A stretch of 39,359 nt of DNA from contig JAKURY010000005.1 in NCBI GenBank assembly GCA_022452145.1, positions 1-39,359 of the forward strand, written 5' to 3'. The notes beneath the pieces are model-generated. The model made no database searches and had not been told where the DNA came from. It saw only the letters and a program-made list of their open reading frames with translations. Positions within the stretch are counted from its first letter, which is position 1. Each line of letters begins with the position of its first letter. This document shows, piece after piece, positions 30,886 to 39,359 of the stretch. The translations under genes were made by a program, and so were the position numbers. Source of the DNA: Acidimicrobiales bacterium. GTDB lineage: Bacteria > Actinomycetota > Acidimicrobiia > Acidimicrobiales > MedAcidi-G1.

Positions 30886-30910
30886 GGTTCGGCACGACGT
30901 GTGCCGAACC
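30886..30910 (+). promoter_or_regulatory. Perfect hairpin at the 5' end of the rpsB leader
   Basis: GGTTCGGCAC, loop GACGT, then GTGCCGAACC: a 10-bp perfect stem with a 5-nt loop, beginning about 9 nt after the -10 element, so at the very start of the transcript. It could stabilise the mRNA or be part of an S2 autoregulatory site. As DNA it is also a 25-bp interrupted palindrome. Confidence 0.55.
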
Positions 30911-30994
30911 AGATCAGAACACCCCCACCCACCCACGGTCGCCCCAGGGCGCGAGGCGGGGGCGAGACGAACCGTTGGGAAGGGAGACCACGAC

Positions 30995-31930
30995 ATGGCC
31001 GTCGTGACCATGAAGCAGCTGCTCGAGGCGGGTGTCCACTTCGGACACCAGACCCGTCGTTGGGACCCGAGGATGAGGCGGTTCATCCACGGAGAGCGGT
31101 CGGGTATCTACATCATCGACCTCCAGCAGACCCTCGAGCGGATCGAGTCGTCGTACACGTTCGTACGCGACCTCGTCGCCGACGGTGGCAGGGTGCTCTT
31201 CGTCGGGACGAAGCGCCAGGCGCAGGACGCCATCCGCTCCTACGCCGAGAAGTGTGGCATGCCCTATGTGAACCAGCGGTGGCTGGGCGGCATGCTCACC
31301 AACTTCCAGACGATCTCCAAGCGGGTGTCCAAGATGCAGGAGTACCAGCGCATGCGCGACTCCGGCGAGTTCGAGGCCATGCCGAAGAAGGAGGCCCTCA
31401 TGCTGGGCCGCGAGCTGGAGAAGCTCGAGCGCAACCTGGGAGGCATCCAGGACATGGAGCGCCTGCCCGACGCCATCTTCGTGCTGGACACCGTGAAGGA
31501 GCACATCGCGGTCACCGAGGCCAACAAGCTGGGCATTCCGATTGTCGCCGTGGTCGACACCGACTGCAACCCGGACGTCATCCAGTACCTCATCCCCGGT
31601 AACGATGACGCCATCCGGTCCGGGCGCCTTCTCTGCCGGGTGGTCGCCGACGCAATCGAGGAGGGTCGATTCATCGTCAACTCCCGGAGTGGCGGCGATG
31701 AGGGCCCATCGCTGGATGCCGACGACCGCGCCGCCGAACAGGAACAGGCTCGTGCATCGGCGGCCGCTGAGGCCGCAGAGCGCGATGCCCGCGTCGCCGC
31801 CACCGTGGCCTCGCCTGTCGAGGAGGCTGCTGCGCCTGTCGGGGTCGAGGAGGCTGCTGCGCCTGTCGGGGTCGAGGAGGCTGCTGCGCCTGTCGACGTA
31901 GCAGTCACCACCGATGGTGAGCAGGCCTGA
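30995..31930 (+). CDS. rpsB: Ribosomal protein uS2 with repeated acidic tail
   Basis: A 311-residue S2. [50 protein letters not shown] and PDAIFVLDT are diagnostic, and the core ends near 230. The remaining about 80 residues are Ala/Glu-rich, including three copies of [10 protein letters not shown]2 binds the 30S near the anti-Shine-Dalgarno platform. ATG 30995 follows a GGGAGA Shine-Dalgarno. It is co-transcribed with tsf, 2 nt downstream. Regulation may involve the leader hairpin. Confidence 0.96.
31817..31897 (+). repeat. Three tandem 27-bp repeats in the 3' end of rpsB
   Basis: Units at 31817-31843, 31844-31870 and 31871-31897 begin GTCGAGGAGGCTGCTGCG; the first two are identical and the third differs only at its last bases. 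Each encodes VEEAAAPVG. The core GTCGAGGAGGCTG is shared with the rpsP repeats. Confidence 0.9.
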
Positions 31931-31932
31931 CT

Positions 31933-32724
31933 ATGGCAGACATCACCGCAAGGGAAGTGAAGGCGCTGCGAGACGCGACGGGCGCCGGGATGATGGACGC
32001 CAAGAATGCGCTCGTCGAGTGTGACGGCGACGCCGAGGCCGCATCGCAATTACTCAGGGAGAGGGGACTGGCCAAGGCCGCCACCCGGTCCGACCGCGAC
32101 AACGTGGAGGGGGCCGTGGGCCTCGTCTCCGACGGTCGTCGAGCCGCCCTCGTGCACCTCAAGTGCGAGACCGACTTCTCGGCCAAGTCCGAGGGCTTCC
32201 TGTCCCTCGTCGACGACCTGACCAACGCCGTGCTGGCCGAGGGCGTGGGTGCCGTCGAGGCCCGCACCGCGGCGATCGACGACCTTCGACTCTCCATCAA
32301 GGAGAACATCGAGGTGGGCCGGGTCGACCTGATCGAGGTCGCTGACGGCAACGCTCTCGACACCTACCTGCACGTCCAGGATGGCCGAGGCGTGAACGGG
32401 GTCGTGGTCGAGGGTTCCGGCGTCGACCAGGAGACCCTCCACCAGGTGGCCCTCCACATCGCCTTCGCCAAGCCGACGACCCTCACCCGTGGCGAGGTTT
32501 CGGCCGAGCTGGTGGAAGCCGAGCGGGCCGCCCTGTTCGAGATCACCAGGGCCGAGGGCAAGCCCGAGCAGGCCTGGGACAAGATCGTCGAGGGCCGTCT
32601 GACCGGTTGGTTCCGGGAGACCGTCCTGCTGGAGCAGGGGCTCCACGGTGACAAGACCTCGGTGGCCGACACGCTGAACGGCGGCAGCATCGAGAGGTTC
32701 ATCCAGGCCTACCTGGGGGCCTGA
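31933..32724 (+). CDS. tsf: Elongation factor Ts
   Basis: A 263-residue EF-Ts that regenerates EF-Tu-GTP. The UBA-like N-terminal domain ([19 protein letters not shown]) and the [12 protein letters not shown] core motif are clear, and the C-terminal helix and dimer region ([14 protein letters not shown]) are complete. It starts 2 nt after the rpsB stop and ends 1 nt before the pyrH GTG, so rpsB-tsf-pyrH form a tight unit. Confidence 0.97.
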
Positions 32725-32725
32725 G

Positions 32726-33463
32726 GTGTCCGCCGACGACCGGATCCCAGCCCGTTGGGACCGCGTGGTCCTGAAGGTCTCCGGTGAGGCCTTCGCCGGC
32801 GAGGCCGGATACGGAATCGACGGAGAGATCGTTGGCCGGATCGCCAGGGACATAACCGATGTCCGCGGCGAGTTCGCGGTCGACATAGCGGTGGTGGTCG
32901 GAGGCGGCAACATCTGGCGTGGTATGTCCGGGGCGGGTGCGGGGATGGACCGGGCCCAGGCCGACTACATGGGCATGCTGGCCACCTCGATAAACGCACT
33001 GGCCCTCCAGGACACCCTGGAGCAGCTGGGGCAGCCCACCCGGGTCCAGTCGGCCATCCACATGGCCCAGATCGCCGAGCCGTACATCCGGCGTCGTGCC
33101 ATCCGGCACCTCGAGAAGGGCCGTGTGGTCATCTTCGCCGGTGGCACCGGCAACCCGTTCTTCACCACCGACACGGCCGCAGCGCTCAGGGCGATCGAGA
33201 TCGAGGCCGGTGTCGTGCTCAAGGGGACGCACTCCGGAACCGACGGGATCTACACGGCGGACCCGAAGCTCGATCCGGAGGCCACCAGGCTCGAACAGGT
33301 CTCCTACCTCGACGTGATCCAGAAGGGCCTGAAGGCAATGGATGCGACGGCCATCACGCTCTGCATGGACAACGACATGCCGATCGTCATGTTCGACCTC
33401 ATGGCCTCGGGTAACGTCCGGTCCATCCTCGCAGGAGAGTCGATCGGCACGTTGGTCACCTGA
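32726..33463 (+). CDS. pyrH: Uridylate kinase (UMP kinase)
   Basis: A 245-residue amino-acid-kinase-fold enzyme that phosphorylates UMP to [81 protein letters not shown] and [12 protein letters not shown] are family motifs. GTG 32726 follows tsf almost directly. It is part of the tsf-pyrH-frr order found widely in bacteria. Confidence 0.97.
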
Positions 33464-33508
33464 TCCGGAGCCGACGGTGATCCTGCCGGACGACGGACGG
33501 AGCACGCT

Positions 33509-34072
33509 GTGAGCGACGAGATGATCCAGATGGTCCTCGACGAGGCCGCTGCGGCGATGTCGGAAGCTGTCACGCACGTCCGGCGCGAGTTCTCGACGGT
33601 GCGTACCGGGCGGGCCTCCTCGTCTTTGGTGGAAAAGATCATGGTGAACGCCTACGGAGTCGAGATGCGCCTTCAGGAACTTGTCAGCTTCTCCATCCCG
33701 GAGGCCCGCCAACTCTTGGTGACGCCACACGATCCGGCAAACGTGCCGGTAATCGAGAAGGCGATCATGGTCGCCGACCTGGGGCTGACGCCCGGCAACG
33801 ACGGGCGCAGCATCCGACTGAGCTTTCCGGAGCTGACCGAGGAACGCCGACGCGATCTGGTACGCATGGTGAACGGCATGGCCGAGGACGGAAGGAACCG
33901 GATGCGTGGATTGCGGCGGCACGCCCGCAAGGACCTCGACGAGTTGGAGGGTTCCGTGTCCGAGGACGACATCAAGTGGGCAGGCGACCGACTGGACGAG
34001 ATGATCCACGGTTTCGAGACCGATATCGACAAGGCCCGCTCGGCCAAGGAAGACGAACTGCTCGAGGTCTGA
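33509..34072 (+). CDS. frr: Ribosome recycling factor
   Basis: A 187-residue RRF, the usual 185. VRREFSTVRTGRASSSLVEKIMVNAYG starts the conserved domain I; PLTEERRRDLVRMVNGMAEDGRNRMRGLRR-type helices and the C-terminal helix (IDKARSAKEDELLEV) complete the three-helix bundle. It splits post-termination ribosomes with EF-G. GTG 33509 is 45 bp after pyrH. Confidence 0.96.
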   Translation: MSDEMIQMVLDEAAAAMSEAVTHVRREFSTVRTGRASSSLVEKIMVNAYGVEMRLQELVSFSIPEARQLLVTPHDPANVPVIEKAIMVADLGLTPGNDGRSIRLSFPELTEERRRDLVRMVNGMAEDGRNRMRGLRRHARKDLDELEGSVSEDDIKWAGDRLDEMIHGFETDIDKARSAKEDELLEV

Positions 34073-34109
34073 ACCGACGGCGGATAGCGACGGCGATAGG
34101 GGTGTCAGC

Positions 34110-35405
34110 GTGAACGAACAGCAGGGGAGGGGCCAGCAGGGCCACGAGTTCGAGGACATCCGGATCCTCGGGCTGGACTCGCCGGACGACGACGTCGAGC
34201 CCGGCCGTTCCGTCTTCGCCGGCGACTCACCGGGGGACGACCTGCCGCACTGGACCGAGCCACCTACCGGCGACGTGACGGGCGGGGGTCCCGTGGTTGA
34301 CGATCCGTGGGCCGGACTGGAGGGCACGCCACGCTGGTCCGACGATGTCCCCGAGGACCACGAGTCCCAGCAGCCGGTCGGCGACCACGTGGAGGCCGCC
34401 GCGGTGTTCTTCGACGACGGTCCACTCGGCTCTATGGGTGCCGCGGAGTTCGACCCGCCGCTGCTGCCGCCAGACGAGCCACTGCCCGACCCCGGCGGGG
34501 CCGACGAAGCGCCTCCTGGTCGGGCCTCCGAACCGGTGCCGCCTGCTCCGCCCCGCCCAGGTGGTGGTACGGGTTCGCGCGGTGGCGGCCGGGACCTTCC
34601 GCTCGCCATTGTCAGCGGGGTGGGCCTCGGGGCCCTGGCGCTGGTGGCGTTCAAGATCGGCGCCGGCGCCACGCTGGCCCTGACCACGTTGCTGCTGGTT
34701 ATGGCGGCCGCCGAGTTCTTCCTCGCGGTCCGCCGGTCCGGCTACCAGCCGGCCTCCCTGCTCGGCATCACCGCCGTGGCTGCGCTGAACCTGGGGGCCT
34801 ACTGGCGGTTTGAAGCCGCTGTGCCCCTCATCCTGGCCCTGACGGTGCTGTTCACGTTGTTCTGGTACCTGACGGGCGTCGACCGCCAGGCCCCGATGCT
34901 GAACGTGTCGGTGACCCTGTTCGGCGTCATCTACGTGGGCTTTCTCGGTTCCTTCATCGGCCTCATGCTCACCGACCCGAACGGGATCGGGATGCTGCTG
35001 GCCGCCGTGCTGTGCACGATCGGCTACGACACCGGAGGCCTCGTGGTCGGCGGGATGATAGGCCGGAACCCGCTGTCCGCCGTGAGCCCCAACAAGACGA
35101 TGGAGGGCCTCATCGGGGGCATGATCGCGGCCTTCGCCATGGCCATGCTCGTGGTGGGCCGAATCACACCGTTCGGCCAGGACCCCGGCGACCTGGGTTC
35201 GGCCTTCGTCCTGGGCCTAGTGGTAGCGCTGGCCGCTCCGGCGGGCGACCTGTGCGAGTCGATGATCAAGCGGGACCTCGGCATCAAGGACATGGGCAGG
35301 ATCCTTCCCGGCCATGGCGGGCTGATGGACCGCTTCGACGCATTGCTGTTTGTCCTGCCGGCCACGTACTACACCGCCAGACTGATGGACCTGTTCGCCG
35401 TCTGA
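34110..35405 (+). CDS. cdsA: Phosphatidate cytidylyltransferase with long acidic N-terminal extension
   Basis: A 431-residue CdsA, making CDP-diacylglycerol from phosphatidic acid and CTP in the membrane. About 160 N-terminal residues are acidic and Pro/Gly-rich (FEDIRILGLDSPDDD, DEPLPDPGGADEAPPG) with no hydrophobic helix. After that come seven or eight membrane helices, and the signature KRDLGIKDMGRILPGHGGLMDRFDALLF closes the protein. It starts at GTG 34110, 37 nt after frr; no later start in the extension is better supported. It takes the product of the PlsX pathway encoded earlier in the window. Confidence 0.93.
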   Translation: MNEQQGRGQQGHEFEDIRILGLDSPDDDVEPGRSVFAGDSPGDDLPHWTEPPTGDVTGGGPVVDDPWAGLEGTPRWSDDVPEDHESQQPVGDHVEAAAVFFDDGPLGSMGAAEFDPPLLPPDEPLPDPGGADEAPPGRASEPVPPAPPRPGGGTGSRGGGRDLPLAIVSGVGLGALALVAFKIGAGATLALTTLLLVMAAAEFFLAVRRSGYQPASLLGITAVAALNLGAYWRFEAAVPLILALTVLFTLFWYLTGVDRQAPMLNVSVTLFGVIYVGFLGSFIGLMLTDPNGIGMLLAAVLCTIGYDTGGLVVGGMIGRNPLSAVSPNKTMEGLIGGMIAAFAMAMLVVGRITPFGQDPGDLGSAFVLGLVVALAAPAGDLCESMIKRDLGIKDMGRILPGHGGLMDRFDALLFVLPATYYTARLMDLFAV

Positions 35406-35434
35406 CCCGTTTCCGCCTGCGGAGACCCCATCGG

Positions 35435-35440
35435 TAGGCT
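35435..35440 (+). promoter_or_regulatory. Probable -10 element (TAGGCT) for dxr
   Basis: TAGGCT followed by 6 nt and ATG 35447, in the 41-bp cdsA-dxr gap; no Shine-Dalgarno. Confidence 0.5.
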
Positions 35441-35446
35441 CGCTCC

Positions 35447-36604
35447 ATGCCCGCGACCTCGGTGGCCGTGCTCGGGTCGACCGGCTCGATCGGGACCCAG
35501 ACGCTCGACGTCGTGGCCGACCGACCCGACGAGTTCGACGTGGTGGCCATCGGCGCCGCACGGTCGGTCGGCATGCTGATCGAGCAGGCCTCCAGGTTCC
35601 GGCCCGAGGTGGTCGCCATCGCCGATGCCTCCCTGGCCGCCGAGGTGGTTGCAGGGGTACCGGACGGCACCGAGGTCCTGGCCGGCCCGGATGCGATGGC
35701 CGACGCCGCTGTCATCGCGGAGGTGGCCATCAACGGGGTGGTCGGCTTCGCAGGCCTCCCGGTCACCCTGGCGACCCTTGCCGCCGGGAAGCGCCTGGGT
35801 CTGGCCAACAAGGAGTCCCTGATCGCCGCAGGCCCGGTGGTCCAGCGGGCCCGGTCCACCCCGGGGGCCGAACTGCTGCCGGTCGACAGCGAGCACTGCG
35901 CCGTCCACCAGTGCCTGCGAGCCAACGACGTGGATGAACGGGTATCCCGCATCGTTCTGACGGCCTCCGGTGGGCCGTTCCGCGGTCGTTCGGCAGACGA
36001 GCTGGCGACCGTGACGGTGGAGGCGGCGCTGGACCATCCCACCTGGACCATGGGCCAGAAGGTCACCGTCGACTCGTCGACCCTGATGAACAAGGGCCTA
36101 GAGGTGATCGAGGCGCACGAGCTATTCGGGATCGACTACGACCGGATCGACGTGGTGGTCCACCCGCAGTCGATCGTCCACTCCATGGTGACCTTCTCGG
36201 ACGGGGCGACAATCGCCCAGCTGTCCAATCCCGACATGCGCCTCTGCATCGGCTACGCGTTGGCGTGGCCGGACCGCCTCGACGTGTCCTACGGGGAGAT
36301 CGACTGGTCCCGGTTGGACCGACTGGACTTCGAGCCGCCTGACCGGCAGGCCTTCCCATGCCTGGGCCTCGCCTTCACCGCCGGCCGGGAGGGCGAGACG
36401 GCTCCGGCATGGCTGAATGCCGCCAACGAGGTGGCGGTCGAGGCCTTCCTGGACGGAACGCTGTCCTGGGTCGGGATCTCCGAACTGCTGGCCGAGGCCC
36501 TGGATGCCTGGCCCGGCGACCGGGCCGATGACGTTGACGCCGTGCTGGACGTGGACCGTAGGGCCCGAGTCGCCGCCCGGGCCCTCGTCGTCGCCCGGGC
36601 CTGA
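35447..36604 (+). CDS. dxr: 1-deoxy-D-xylulose 5-phosphate reductoisomerase
   Basis: A 385-residue Dxr, the committed step of the MEP isoprenoid pathway (DXP plus NADPH to MEP). The NADPH-binding GSTGSIGTQTLDVV is at the N-terminus; VDSEHCAVHQCL holds the metal-binding Asp and Glu; LTASGGPFRG and QKVTVDSSTLMNKGLEVIEAHELF are the active-site loops, and HPQSIVHSMV the flexible region. It is 2 nt ahead of rseP, with ispG from the same pathway next. rlmN, commonly between cdsA and dxr in actinobacteria, is absent here. Confidence 0.97.
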   Translation: MPATSVAVLGSTGSIGTQTLDVVADRPDEFDVVAIGAARSVGMLIEQASRFRPEVVAIADASLAAEVVAGVPDGTEVLAGPDAMADAAVIAEVAINGVVGFAGLPVTLATLAAGKRLGLANKESLIAAGPVVQRARSTPGAELLPVDSEHCAVHQCLRANDVDERVSRIVLTASGGPFRGRSADELATVTVEAALDHPTWTMGQKVTVDSSTLMNKGLEVIEAHELFGIDYDRIDVVVHPQSIVHSMVTFSDGATIAQLSNPDMRLCIGYALAWPDRLDVSYGEIDWSRLDRLDFEPPDRQAFPCLGLAFTAGREGETAPAWLNAANEVAVEAFLDGTLSWVGISELLAEALDAWPGDRADDVDAVLDVDRRARVAARALVVARA

Positions 36605-36606
36605 CG

Positions 36607-37902
36607 GTGGCGGTCGACCTCAACGGCCCCGGGGCTTCCGGGCCGATCGTGCACAGCACGGGCGATGACCGCATCCGACTGCTCCTCCTCATCGGCGCCG
36701 TCGTGTCCTTCGGGCTCATCGGGGGCCTGTCGGGCCTGGTGGTGGTCTCCTCGATCGTCGTCATGCTGGTGCTCCACGAACTCGGACACTTCGTGGTGGC
36801 GCGCCTTGCCGGCATGCAGGTGACCGAGTTCTTCCTGGGGTTCGGGCCCCGCCTCTGGTCGGTGCGCCGAGGCGAGACCACCTACGGGTTGAAGGCCATT
36901 CCGGCTGGCGCCTACGTGCGGATCACCGGGATGAGCAGCCTCGACGTCGTCGACCCGGCCGTGGAGTACCGGACCTACCGGCAACAGTCCTACCCGAGGC
37001 GGATGGCGGTCGCCCTGGCGGGCTCCGCAACCCACTTCGCGGTGGCCCTCGCCCTTCTGTTCGTCGTCTACGTGGCGGTGGGGCGACCAGATCCCACGCG
37101 GTGGGTGGTCGGCGAGGTGGTGTCCGGCTCGGCCGCAGCGGCCGCCGACGTACACGTGGGAGACCGGATCGTGTCTGTGGACGGTGTGGAGACCCCGGGC
37201 TTCGAGGAGTTCGGGAGGGTGGTCCGTGGGCTTCCGGGTCAGGCGGTGGTCGTGGTCACGGAGCGGGAGGGCGATCGGTCGAAGCGCACGATGGTGCTCG
37301 GTGAGCGGCTGATGGTGGACGGCACGGACGCAGGGTTCTTCGGAGTGGGCCCCGATCGGCCCATGGAGACCCTCGGACCGGTCGATGCCGCCGCCGAGGC
37401 GTCGGCCCGCTTCGTCGACCTCGTGGGACTTTCCGTCGATGGCCTGGTCGGGTTCTTCACCCCGGATGGGCTGGCCTCGTTCTTCACGGGCGGGATCGGA
37501 TCCCCGGAGGCGCCGCACCCTGACGTGCCCGCGGGCGGATCCGGGCCGGGTCCGGTCGTCGAGACCGGCGCGGATCCGGCCGATGACGAGCGCCTGCTCT
37601 CGATCTACGGGGCGGCCCGCCTGGGAAGCGCCATGCTCGACGACGGCTGGTCGACCTACCTGTGGTTCCTGATCCTCATCAACGTCTTCATCGGCGTCTT
37701 CAACCTGGTACCGCTCCTGCCGCTCGACGGTGGCCACGTGGCCATCGCCACATATGAGCGGATCCGGTCGGTGGGCGGCCGTCGGTACACCGCCGATGCT
37801 GCGAAGTTGATTCCCCTCACCTGGGCGGTGGTGACCCTGTTGATCGCGGTGTTCGTCGTGGCCCTCTACCGCGACATCGTGGACCTGCCTGACTTCGGCT
37901 GA
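36607..37902 (+). CDS. rseP: RIP metalloprotease (site-2 protease), RseP/Rip1-like
   Basis: A 431-residue intramembrane zinc protease. The first active-site helix contains HELGH at 57-61, the second LDGGH at 373-377 with D374 as third ligand. A PDZ domain (about 160-220; VVSGSAAAAADVHVGDRIVSVDG) lies between them on the outer side, followed by a Pro/Gly/Asp-rich insert near 295-325. Homologues cleave anti-sigma factors and other small membrane proteins. An HtrA-type protease in the same window (22796) could act upstream in such a cascade, but no anti-sigma factor gene is visible. GTG 36607. Confidence 0.94.
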   Translation: MAVDLNGPGASGPIVHSTGDDRIRLLLLIGAVVSFGLIGGLSGLVVVSSIVVMLVLHELGHFVVARLAGMQVTEFFLGFGPRLWSVRRGETTYGLKAIPAGAYVRITGMSSLDVVDPAVEYRTYRQQSYPRRMAVALAGSATHFAVALALLFVVYVAVGRPDPTRWVVGEVVSGSAAAAADVHVGDRIVSVDGVETPGFEEFGRVVRGLPGQAVVVVTEREGDRSKRTMVLGERLMVDGTDAGFFGVGPDRPMETLGPVDAAAEASARFVDLVGLSVDGLVGFFTPDGLASFFTGGIGSPEAPHPDVPAGGSGPGPVVETGADPADDERLLSIYGAARLGSAMLDDGWSTYLWFLILINVFIGVFNLVPLLPLDGGHVAIATYERIRSVGGRRYTADAAKLIPLTWAVVTLLIAVFVVALYRDIVDLPDFG

Positions 37903-37935
37903 GCTGGCCTGCGACAGCGGTCAACCGGTCACCGA

Positions 37936-37941
37936 TAGCCT
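37936..37941 (+). promoter_or_regulatory. Probable -10 element (TAGCCT) for ispG
   Basis: TAGCCT followed by 7 nt and ATG 37949, in the 46-bp rseP-ispG gap; no Shine-Dalgarno. Confidence 0.5.
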
Positions 37942-37948
37942 CATTCCC

Positions 37949-39175
37949 ATGGAGGTCAAGGCAGCGATCGAGCGCCGGCCCACCCGTCAGGTGATGGTCG
38001 GAAGCGTGGCCGTCGGCGGCGACGCGCCGATCACGGTCCAGTCGATGACCGTCACCCGGACGGCAGACCACGAGGCGACCCTCCAGCAGATCTACGACCT
38101 GGCCATGGCCGGTGCCGACATCGTGCGTTGCACCTGCAACGAGATTGAGGCCGCCGAGGGACTGGCCCGGATCGTGCCCCGGTCGCCGGTCCCGATCGTG
38201 GCCGACATCCACCACCAGTACCGGATGGCCCTGGCGGCACTCGAGGCCGGCGTGCATTGCCTCCGCCTGAACCCGGGCAACATCCGCAAGCCCGAGCACA
38301 TCCGGGCCGTGGCCACAGAGGCACGCGACCGGGGCGTCCCGATCCGGATCGGCGTCAACGGCGGATCATTGCATCCGGACCTGTACGAGAAGCACGGTGG
38401 CCGGGTTACCCCCGAGGCGATGGTCGAGTCGGCCCTGGACGAGATTCGGTTCTTCGCCGATGTCGACTTCGACCTGATCAAGATCTCCGTGAAGGCCTCC
38501 AGCGTCCCGATCATGGTCGAGGCCTACAGGCAGCTGTCCGAGGTAACCGACTACCCGCTCCACCTCGGAGTCACCGAGGCCGGCCCCCCACCGGCGGGCC
38601 TCATCAAGTCGTCTGCCGGCATCGGGGCCCTGCTGTCGCAGGGCATCGGTGACACGATCAGGTACTCCCTGACCGCCGATCCGGTGGAGGAGGCCCGGGC
38701 CGGCCGGGCGCTGCTAGAGGCAATGGGCCTCCGGGAGCGCCGGAACGTCGACCTGATCGCCTGTCCCAGCTGTGGTCGGGCCGAGATCGACGTCGTGGCC
38801 GTGGCCGCCGACGCCATGGCCGCCTTCGCCGACCGGGAGATTCCACTCCAGGTGGCGGTCATGGGTTGTGTGGTGAACGGGCCCGGGGAGGCCCGCGACG
38901 CCGACCTCGGAATCGCTGCGGGAAACCGACGTGGCCATCTTTTCGTGAAGGGCCGGAACGCGGCGGTGGTGGCCGAGGACGAGATGGTCGACGCCCTGGT
39001 GGAGTGGGCCGAGTTGATCCACGCCGAGGGTGCTGAAGCGGCCCTGGCCCGGGTCGACACCGAGAAGGCGGCCCGCGAGGCTGAACGGGATCGCCTGCGG
39101 CTGTTGGTCGACCAGGGCGAGGATGTCAACGACGCCGGTACGCGGATCGAGCTCATCCGAAGGCACGCTGGCTGA
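37949..39175 (+). CDS. ispG: 4-hydroxy-3-methylbut-2-en-1-yl diphosphate synthase IspG
   Basis: A 408-residue IspG, converting MEcPP to HMBPP in the MEP pathway. The TIM-barrel half has VQSMTVTRTADHEATLQQI, DIVRCTCN, ADIHHQYRMALAALEAG and RLNPGNI. The cluster domain supplies C272 and C275 (CPSCGR) and C307 (MGCVVNGPGEA) for the 4Fe-4S cluster. A charged C-terminal helix of about 40 residues follows the fold. With dxr two genes upstream, it gives the window two MEP-pathway enzymes. Confidence 0.97.
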   Translation: MEVKAAIERRPTRQVMVGSVAVGGDAPITVQSMTVTRTADHEATLQQIYDLAMAGADIVRCTCNEIEAAEGLARIVPRSPVPIVADIHHQYRMALAALEAGVHCLRLNPGNIRKPEHIRAVATEARDRGVPIRIGVNGGSLHPDLYEKHGGRVTPEAMVESALDEIRFFADVDFDLIKISVKASSVPIMVEAYRQLSEVTDYPLHLGVTEAGPPPAGLIKSSAGIGALLSQGIGDTIRYSLTADPVEEARAGRALLEAMGLRERRNVDLIACPSCGRAEIDVVAVAADAMAAFADREIPLQVAVMGCVVNGPGEARDADLGIAAGNRRGHLFVKGRNAAVVAEDEMVDALVEWAELIHAEGAEAALARVDTEKAAREAERDRLRLLVDQGEDVNDAGTRIELIRRHAG

Positions 39176-39176
39176 C

Positions 39177-39221
39177 GGCGCCTGGCCGGCGGCGAATACG
39201 GCCACAGTTGGCGCCTGGCCG
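39177..39221 (+). repeat. 12-bp direct repeats after ispG
   Basis: GGCGCCTGGCCG occurs at 39177-39188 and again at 39210-39221, 33 bp apart start to start, about three helical turns. They lie between the ispG stop and the next promoter and could be an operator pair. Confidence 0.5.
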
Positions 39222-39267
39222 AAGATGGCGACGCGTCAAGCCCCTAGGCGGTGCCCTGGTCCGAAGG

Positions 39268-39273
39268 TATGCT
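39268..39273 (+). promoter_or_regulatory. Probable -10 element (TATGCT) at the right edge
   Basis: TATGCT followed by 9 nt and ATG 39283. It would drive the gene or leader that continues past the window. Confidence 0.45.
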
Positions 39274-39282
39274 CTTCGACGC

Positions 39283-39359
39283 ATGAATCGCCGGTATTCC
39301 GACGAGGCGTGGGCTCTGCCCACGCCTCTTGTTTTCGGTACCGGCGTTCGACCGCGAGG
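39283..39359 (+). CDS. Short open frame at the right edge: leader peptide or truncated gene
   Basis: ATG 39283 opens a frame that is still open at the window end (25 codons, MNRRYSDEAWALPTPLVFG...). A terminator-like hairpin lies inside it, at 39304-39328, so it may be a leader peptide ahead of the true gene rather than a protein. It has no run of one amino acid as in classical attenuators. The downstream gene cannot be seen. Confidence 0.25.
   Translation, partial: MNRRYSDEAWALPTPLVFGTGVRPR
39304..39335 (+). terminator. Intrinsic terminator or attenuator
   Basis: GAGGCGTGGGC (39304-39314), loop TCT, GCCCACGCCTC (39318-39328): a perfect 11-bp stem followed by TTGTTTT. It is the only classical Rho-independent terminator I found in the window. 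It may end ispG transcription, but because a promoter lies 31 nt upstream it could also attenuate the next transcript. Confidence 0.7.

Follow-up and report, generated by a model that had tools for sequence, protein, structure and literature searches.

Does the hairpin that lies between ispG and the right edge of this stretch of DNA simply end the ispG transcript, or does it control the expression of the genes that follow? The window, as we call the whole stretch analysed, spans bases 1-39359 of a scaffold of 112160 bases, and its right edge abuts a run of 100 N. The original prediction, made from the letters of the window, was that the hairpin, if transcription starts at 39280, terminates early and has to be read through before the next gene can be expressed; it guessed that this next gene belongs to a rimP-nusA operon, and allowed that the hairpin would merely terminate ispG if the next gene were convergent. 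Extending the sequence to the right, as had been proposed, bore out the guess. The first stretch past the gap encodes the C-terminus of RimP (its last 30 codons, overlapping the start of nusA), which shares 25 of 29 aligned residues with the RimP of a congener; nusA, infB and rbfA follow (Pfam; NusA, IF-2, RbfA). These genes share the direction of ispG, and the case of a convergent neighbour therefore does not apply. A profile search found no match to RimP_N elsewhere in this assembly, as expected, because the gap hides nearly all of rimP. Reading frames further right occupy the positions of what we take to be truB and ribF (named by reading, without a family search), and the gene order at 30899-39175 presumably represents the familiar cluster rpsB-tsf-pyrH-frr-cdsA-dxr-rseP-ispG, as judged by ORF reading with ispG alone tested.

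Table 1. Features in and next to the leader, in coordinates of the window.
Feature	Position	Strand	Remark
ispG (gcpE), upstream gene	37949..39175	+	Pfam GcpE, E 3.8e-133
12-bp direct repeat GGCGCCTGGCCG, copy 1	39177..39188	+	exact
12-bp direct repeat GGCGCCTGGCCG, copy 2	39210..39221	+	exact
CCTAGGCG, -35-region element	39243..39250	+	17 bp between element and -10 box
TATGCT -10 box	39268..39273	+	TATGAT or TATGCT in 35/35 family leaders
Transcription start region, inferred	39280..39283	+	from -10 box position
Tiny reading frame from ATG (39283-39285), open to window end	39283..39359	+	not conserved as ORF
Outer pairing CGCCGGTA (39289-39296) with TACCGGCG (39339-39346), plus CCGA/TCGG	39289..39346	+
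Terminator hairpin, rimP-leader type, core CGTGGGC...GCCCACG	39304..39328	+
U-rich tail TTGTTTT, one G interrupting	39329..39335	+	directly after stem
Scaffold gap of 100 N	39360-39459		directly right of window

The hairpin itself is exactly as first described, a perfect 11-bp stem (39304-39314/39318-39328) that closes a 3-nt loop, with the core GTGGGC-TCT-GCCCAC and a U-rich tail behind it. It is beyond chance: one terminator-like site was found where 0.2 are expected (460 bp, both strands), and the segment 39277-39359 folds with z = -5.2, none of 200 shuffles being as stable. The pattern GTGGGC-N3-6-GCCCAC occurs at eight places in this genome. A T-rich tail sets the window copy apart from the remaining seven, which on neither strand have more than 4 T among the 11 bases that follow. 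Searches with Rfam covariance models returned nothing at the gathering score and sub-threshold matches only. The best of them, on the minus strand, was to the Brucella sRNA CI337 (23.6 vs 229 bits; E 7.1e-4 and 2.4e-4), where the match was best over the terminator-like hairpin of that RNA.

Aligning the leader across relatives, which had also been suggested, showed that the position of the hairpin and the -10 box is shared by 34 of the 36 family relatives searched. G006 and G018 (78% and 84% complete) account for the rest: the query, part of which was the end of ispG, had no match in either. Across the resulting 35 family leaders (the 34 relatives and the window), the hairpin arms are 96-98% conserved, compared with 57% just downstream. 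The distance from the end of CCCACG to the start of rimP is 78-132 nt in 15 congeners, the window's own start lying inside the gap; across the family, the start could be placed by sequence pattern in 28 of the 34 relatives, 50-132 nt from the hairpin core, and Pfam confirmed the RimP protein in L017 and G017. No tRNA gene was found in the 8 loci checked. In many relatives, the contig breaks off some 2-3 kb past ispG, perhaps where infB begins with repetitive sequence; this is probably an assembly effect.

The conservation extends to the predicted promoter. The TATGCT box is where it had been described, and its promoter function, though predicted, is consistent with the presence of TATG[AC]T in every family leader. 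A simple consensus scan found no sigma-70 promoter in the leader, so the promoter call rests on conservation. The -35 region of the window leader is non-canonical. In the window's genus (g1), CCTAGG lies 19 nt before the -10 box; of the 16 leaders, 9 have it unchanged and 7 differ from it by 1-2 letters. CCTTGG occurs at -35 spacing in 3 of 5 leaders of g4; no such element was found at that spacing in the leaders of g2, g3, g5 and g6. Separately, nearly all family leaders share a conserved RTRCATCG-like stretch that starts 9-10 nt past the -10 box (window 39281-39290; alignment A1). It is altered in the window itself, and it is possibly a constrained transcript start.

The hairpin is also widespread in the order. 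In a sample of 59 genomes, which included the window's own and one family member, RimP_N was found in 52 and 51 were assessable (G088, whose contig ends, was left out of the count). Of these 51 rimP genes, 45 have a CGTGGG...CCC hairpin upstream. The strict form CGTGGGC-N3-5-GCCCACG lies upstream of rimP in 35 (28 from the listed matches and 7 read from the loci: G048, G053, G058, G063, G080, G081, G093), and ten have the relaxed CGTGGG...CCC core (G040, G052, G059, G062, G075, G078, G082, G084, G085, G091). Among the exceptions, the stem is altered in G039, G051 and G070, an unrelated hairpin is found in G083, and G071 and G077 have no such hairpin upstream of rimP. Of 474 control windows (300 nt each, taken from 30 order loci), 10 contain the relaxed pattern. 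Taken without its tail, the strict pattern is non-specific: 42 of at least 75 places in order genomes lie away from the operon, and the remaining ones among the matches listed comprise 28 before a RimP_N match, the window, and four before nusA in genomes without a RimP_N match.

The conserved pairing of this element may reflect a hairpin in RNA or a palindrome in DNA that is bound by a repressor. Across 38 aligned order sequences, standard pairs fill 97.6% of the pair cells. Two-sided changes occupy 29 cells; shuffles have 5.3, and none of 500 reaches the observed value. Slid versions of the alignment give fewer paired cells, fewer two-sided cells and a smaller covariation score. By two cruder counts, one slid version draws level, and the number of pairs with a two-sided change is attained in 21 of 500 shuffles. 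The alignment (A2) was built from sequences that fit the core pattern, with L072, L073 and L085 placed by hand, and the invariance of its core columns thus arises partly by selection. Because the sequences were chosen by the core pattern, only the lower stem provides independent evidence. This lower stem co-varies and contains G-U pairs, and the G-U pairs favour RNA over a DNA operator. A repressor site would account for a core that is a near-perfect DNA palindrome with very highly conserved letters. However, it would leave unexplained why the lower stem accommodates G-U pairs and compensatory changes, why a T-rich tail is found on one side only and why the element sits at a fixed place downstream of the promoter box, and we regard it as extremely unlikely. 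The consensus fold retains the terminator stem alone, extended by 3 pairs.

Two further elements of the window's leader were considered as conserved features. The long outer helix was a candidate antiterminator or extended fold. It is strong in the window genome, as judged by folding, but it is not kept family-wide: 64.8% of its cells are paired, compared with 83.2% in the other outer helix, and it is absent from the consensus fold. For 5 of its 8 pairs, some sequence shows a two-sided change, and the structure as a whole beats the slid controls, so that the helix may exist in some lineages. Interruption of the U tract by G was likewise rejected, its pattern fitting only 19 of the 38 order sequences.

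The original prediction also drew attention to the direct repeats and to the tiny reading frame that contains the hairpin. The repeats are present exactly and twice, but they appear to have no part in the leader. Considered as operator or regulatory sites, they were rejected: the 12-mer is absent from all 34 relatives and occurs, among 35 loci, in that of the window only. Thus, they are probably incidental. The ATG does follow the box by 9 nt, as had been noted, but the frame is not conserved. The frame could nevertheless encode a leader peptide, perhaps leaderless from +1, whose translation across the hairpin would let the ribosome control folding. Such an attenuator would fit the 26 of 35 leaders that have ATG or GTG at 9-10 nt from the -10 box and a frame that stays open beyond the hairpin core. 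Yet the remaining 9 leaders, spread over three genera, have GTA, an unusual start, at this position (the 34 leaders other than the window's have GTG in 22, GTA in 9 and ATG in 3). Moreover, the phase of the frame relative to the hairpin is split, 21 leaders vs 14, stop positions are variable, there is scant space for a ribosome-binding site past the presumed start, and no run of one regulatory codon was seen. Given the GTA codons and the split phase, we therefore consider a coding leader peptide quite improbable, with some small likelihood left for a leaderless start codon.

Whether the hairpin belongs to ispG or to rimP can be judged in genomes where the two genes lie apart. In the window, the hairpin starts 128 nt past the ispG stop codon, where ispG, or rseP and ispG as one operon, might be expected to have a terminator, although a conserved promoter-like element sits between the two. 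In seven order genomes examined (G038, G042, G043, G047, G050, G055, G059), ispG and rimP are separated by 1.7 kb to about 1.3 Mb, and in each of them the hairpin is found at rimP, with the strict core in six and the relaxed core in G059. Six of the seven have no hairpin within 900 nt after ispG, and G059 has a weak match only, 844 nt downstream. The hairpin thus stays with rimP where ispG lies elsewhere, and it is therefore very unlikely to be the ispG terminator.

These observations match a known system. In the survey of Naville and Gautheret 2010 (PMC2965389), the rimP-leader was the most ubiquitous attenuator; it is described there as a GGGc...gCCC terminator with a U stretch and no visible antiterminator, placed 4-130 nt before the gene. 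The window shares with it a short terminator in the 5' UTR of rimP-nusA-infB, the GGGc...gCCC core with a U stretch (here interrupted, TTGTTTT), and the lack of a conserved antiterminator. It differs in that the core common to the Acidimicrobiales order is longer, CGTGGGC...GCCCACG. The section of the survey on the rimP-leader names Firmicutes and Gammaproteobacteria, not Actinobacteria (PMC2965389). An early terminator upstream of rimP-nusA, to be read through as predicted, fits both the DNA to the right and the relatives, and we conclude that the region very probably forms the 5' leader of rimP-nusA-infB and is a rimP-leader of the known kind. The window would thus be one more example of this leader, in an uncultured lineage. 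In the open-licence literature, as judged by titles and the beginnings of abstracts, we recognised nothing on the leader in Acidimicrobiales or on its persistence without rimP, and a term search of PMC8060035 and PMC13236596 gave no match.

How might such a leader act? Transcription would start near 39280-39283 from the TATGCT promoter, and some 20-25 nt on, the RNA would fold the GAGGCGUGGGC/GCCCACGCCUC hairpin followed by UUGUUUU, a structure supported by the comparisons above and a putative intrinsic terminator. Part of the polymerases would stop at the hairpin, and the rest would continue into rimP, nusA and infB. A comparably short leader with an early terminator precedes rimP-nusA in Streptococcus agalactiae (gbs0413-gbs0418), where RNA-seq detected termination 31 nt after the start (PMC4448216); the terminator of the window, in contrast to that one, is predicted from sequence. 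According to a 2025 review that cites Mondal 2016, B. subtilis NusA controls its own synthesis by stimulating termination at an intrinsic terminator in the 5' leader of nusA (Mondal et al. 2016, via PMC12288461). Stimulation by NusA is reported for that leader, whereas for the leader in the window it is suggested by analogy. NusA strengthens pausing as well as termination at hairpins; by the example of other bacteria, a high NusA level would therefore make more polymerases stop and reduce expression of the operon that encodes it. Thus, the leader probably lets NusA limit its own production. The near-invariant letters of GTGGGC/GCCCAC further suggest recognition by a protein, most probably NusA on RNA polymerase, of the sequence in addition to the shape.

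The rimP-leader is very widespread, and its published description favoured NusA as the best candidate reader, yet allowed RimP as well and left the choice between them open (PMC2965389). The same attenuator could indeed respond to RimP, to another product of the operon or to general pausing rather than to NusA, and that the hairpin usually precedes rimP would be consistent with this. In a phylum sample of 80 genomes, 65 have RimP; 30 loci were examined and 29 were assessable. A GTGGG...CCC core lies at most 300 nt upstream of rimP in 18 of the 29, compared with 15 of 453 control windows, and is absent upstream of rimP in the other 11. In twenty genomes without a RimP_N match, we searched for NusA_N; 18 were positive and 15 loci were examined, G046, G111 and G125 being left out. 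In nine of these loci, from five families (L187, L188, L189, L190, L193, L194, L196, L197, L198), the DNA between the hairpin and nusA is too short for rimP, and all nine have a GTGGG...CCC hairpin with a T-rich tail directly before nusA. The hairpin lies 39-57 nt before the NusA_N match in seven (G044, G056, G095, G097, G112, G139, G163) and 130 and 233 nt before it in G126 and G151. For DUF150_C, the other RimP domain, six of the nine genomes gave no match; in the other three, the matches are weak, below threshold and located on other contigs.

The remaining loci are more varied. In G068 and G170, the RimP C-terminal domain (sub-threshold in G068) lies just before nusA, with the hairpin farther upstream; in G069, an open frame of no assigned identity precedes nusA, with the hairpin 463 nt upstream. 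The f72 genomes G145 and G157 have a RimP domain and no such hairpin in the 700 nt before nusA, and G147 has too little upstream DNA to judge.

That the hairpin lies directly before nusA where rimP is missing goes beyond the description of the rimP-leader in the text of PMC2965389. Association with nusA itself, as would characterise an attenuator autoregulated by NusA, thus holds at nine of nine rimP-less loci examined and favours nusA as the controlled gene, in agreement with NusA feedback. These rimP-less genomes are in effect natural experiments that favour NusA over RimP as the reader. Together with the feedback reported for B. subtilis NusA (PMC12288461), they make a sensor other than NusA unlikely in our estimation.

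In some families, the core appears to have been rewritten. Reversed GCCCCT...AGGGGC stems are found in f62 at all five loci examined (L148, L151, L155, L157, L164), GGTCGGCCC...GGGCCGGCC stems in f70 at all three (L159, L161, L165), and GTCGGC...GCCGGC in two members of f71; one member of f79 has no similar stem upstream of rimP. Such family-specific cores would point to co-evolution with a reader protein, and the lineages that carry them may offer a route to the protein surface that reads the hairpin. It is thus conceivable, with a likelihood that we would place a little short of even, that the 'rimP-leader' is in fact a nusA-leader, a hairpin for sequence-specific recognition by NusA/RNA polymerase that stays with nusA where rimP is missing and has had its core rewritten in some families. 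The rimP leader of E. coli K-12 shows, by eye, a GGGC/GCCC hairpin with a T run just before the gene, although the automatic ranking favoured a different hairpin of this leader.
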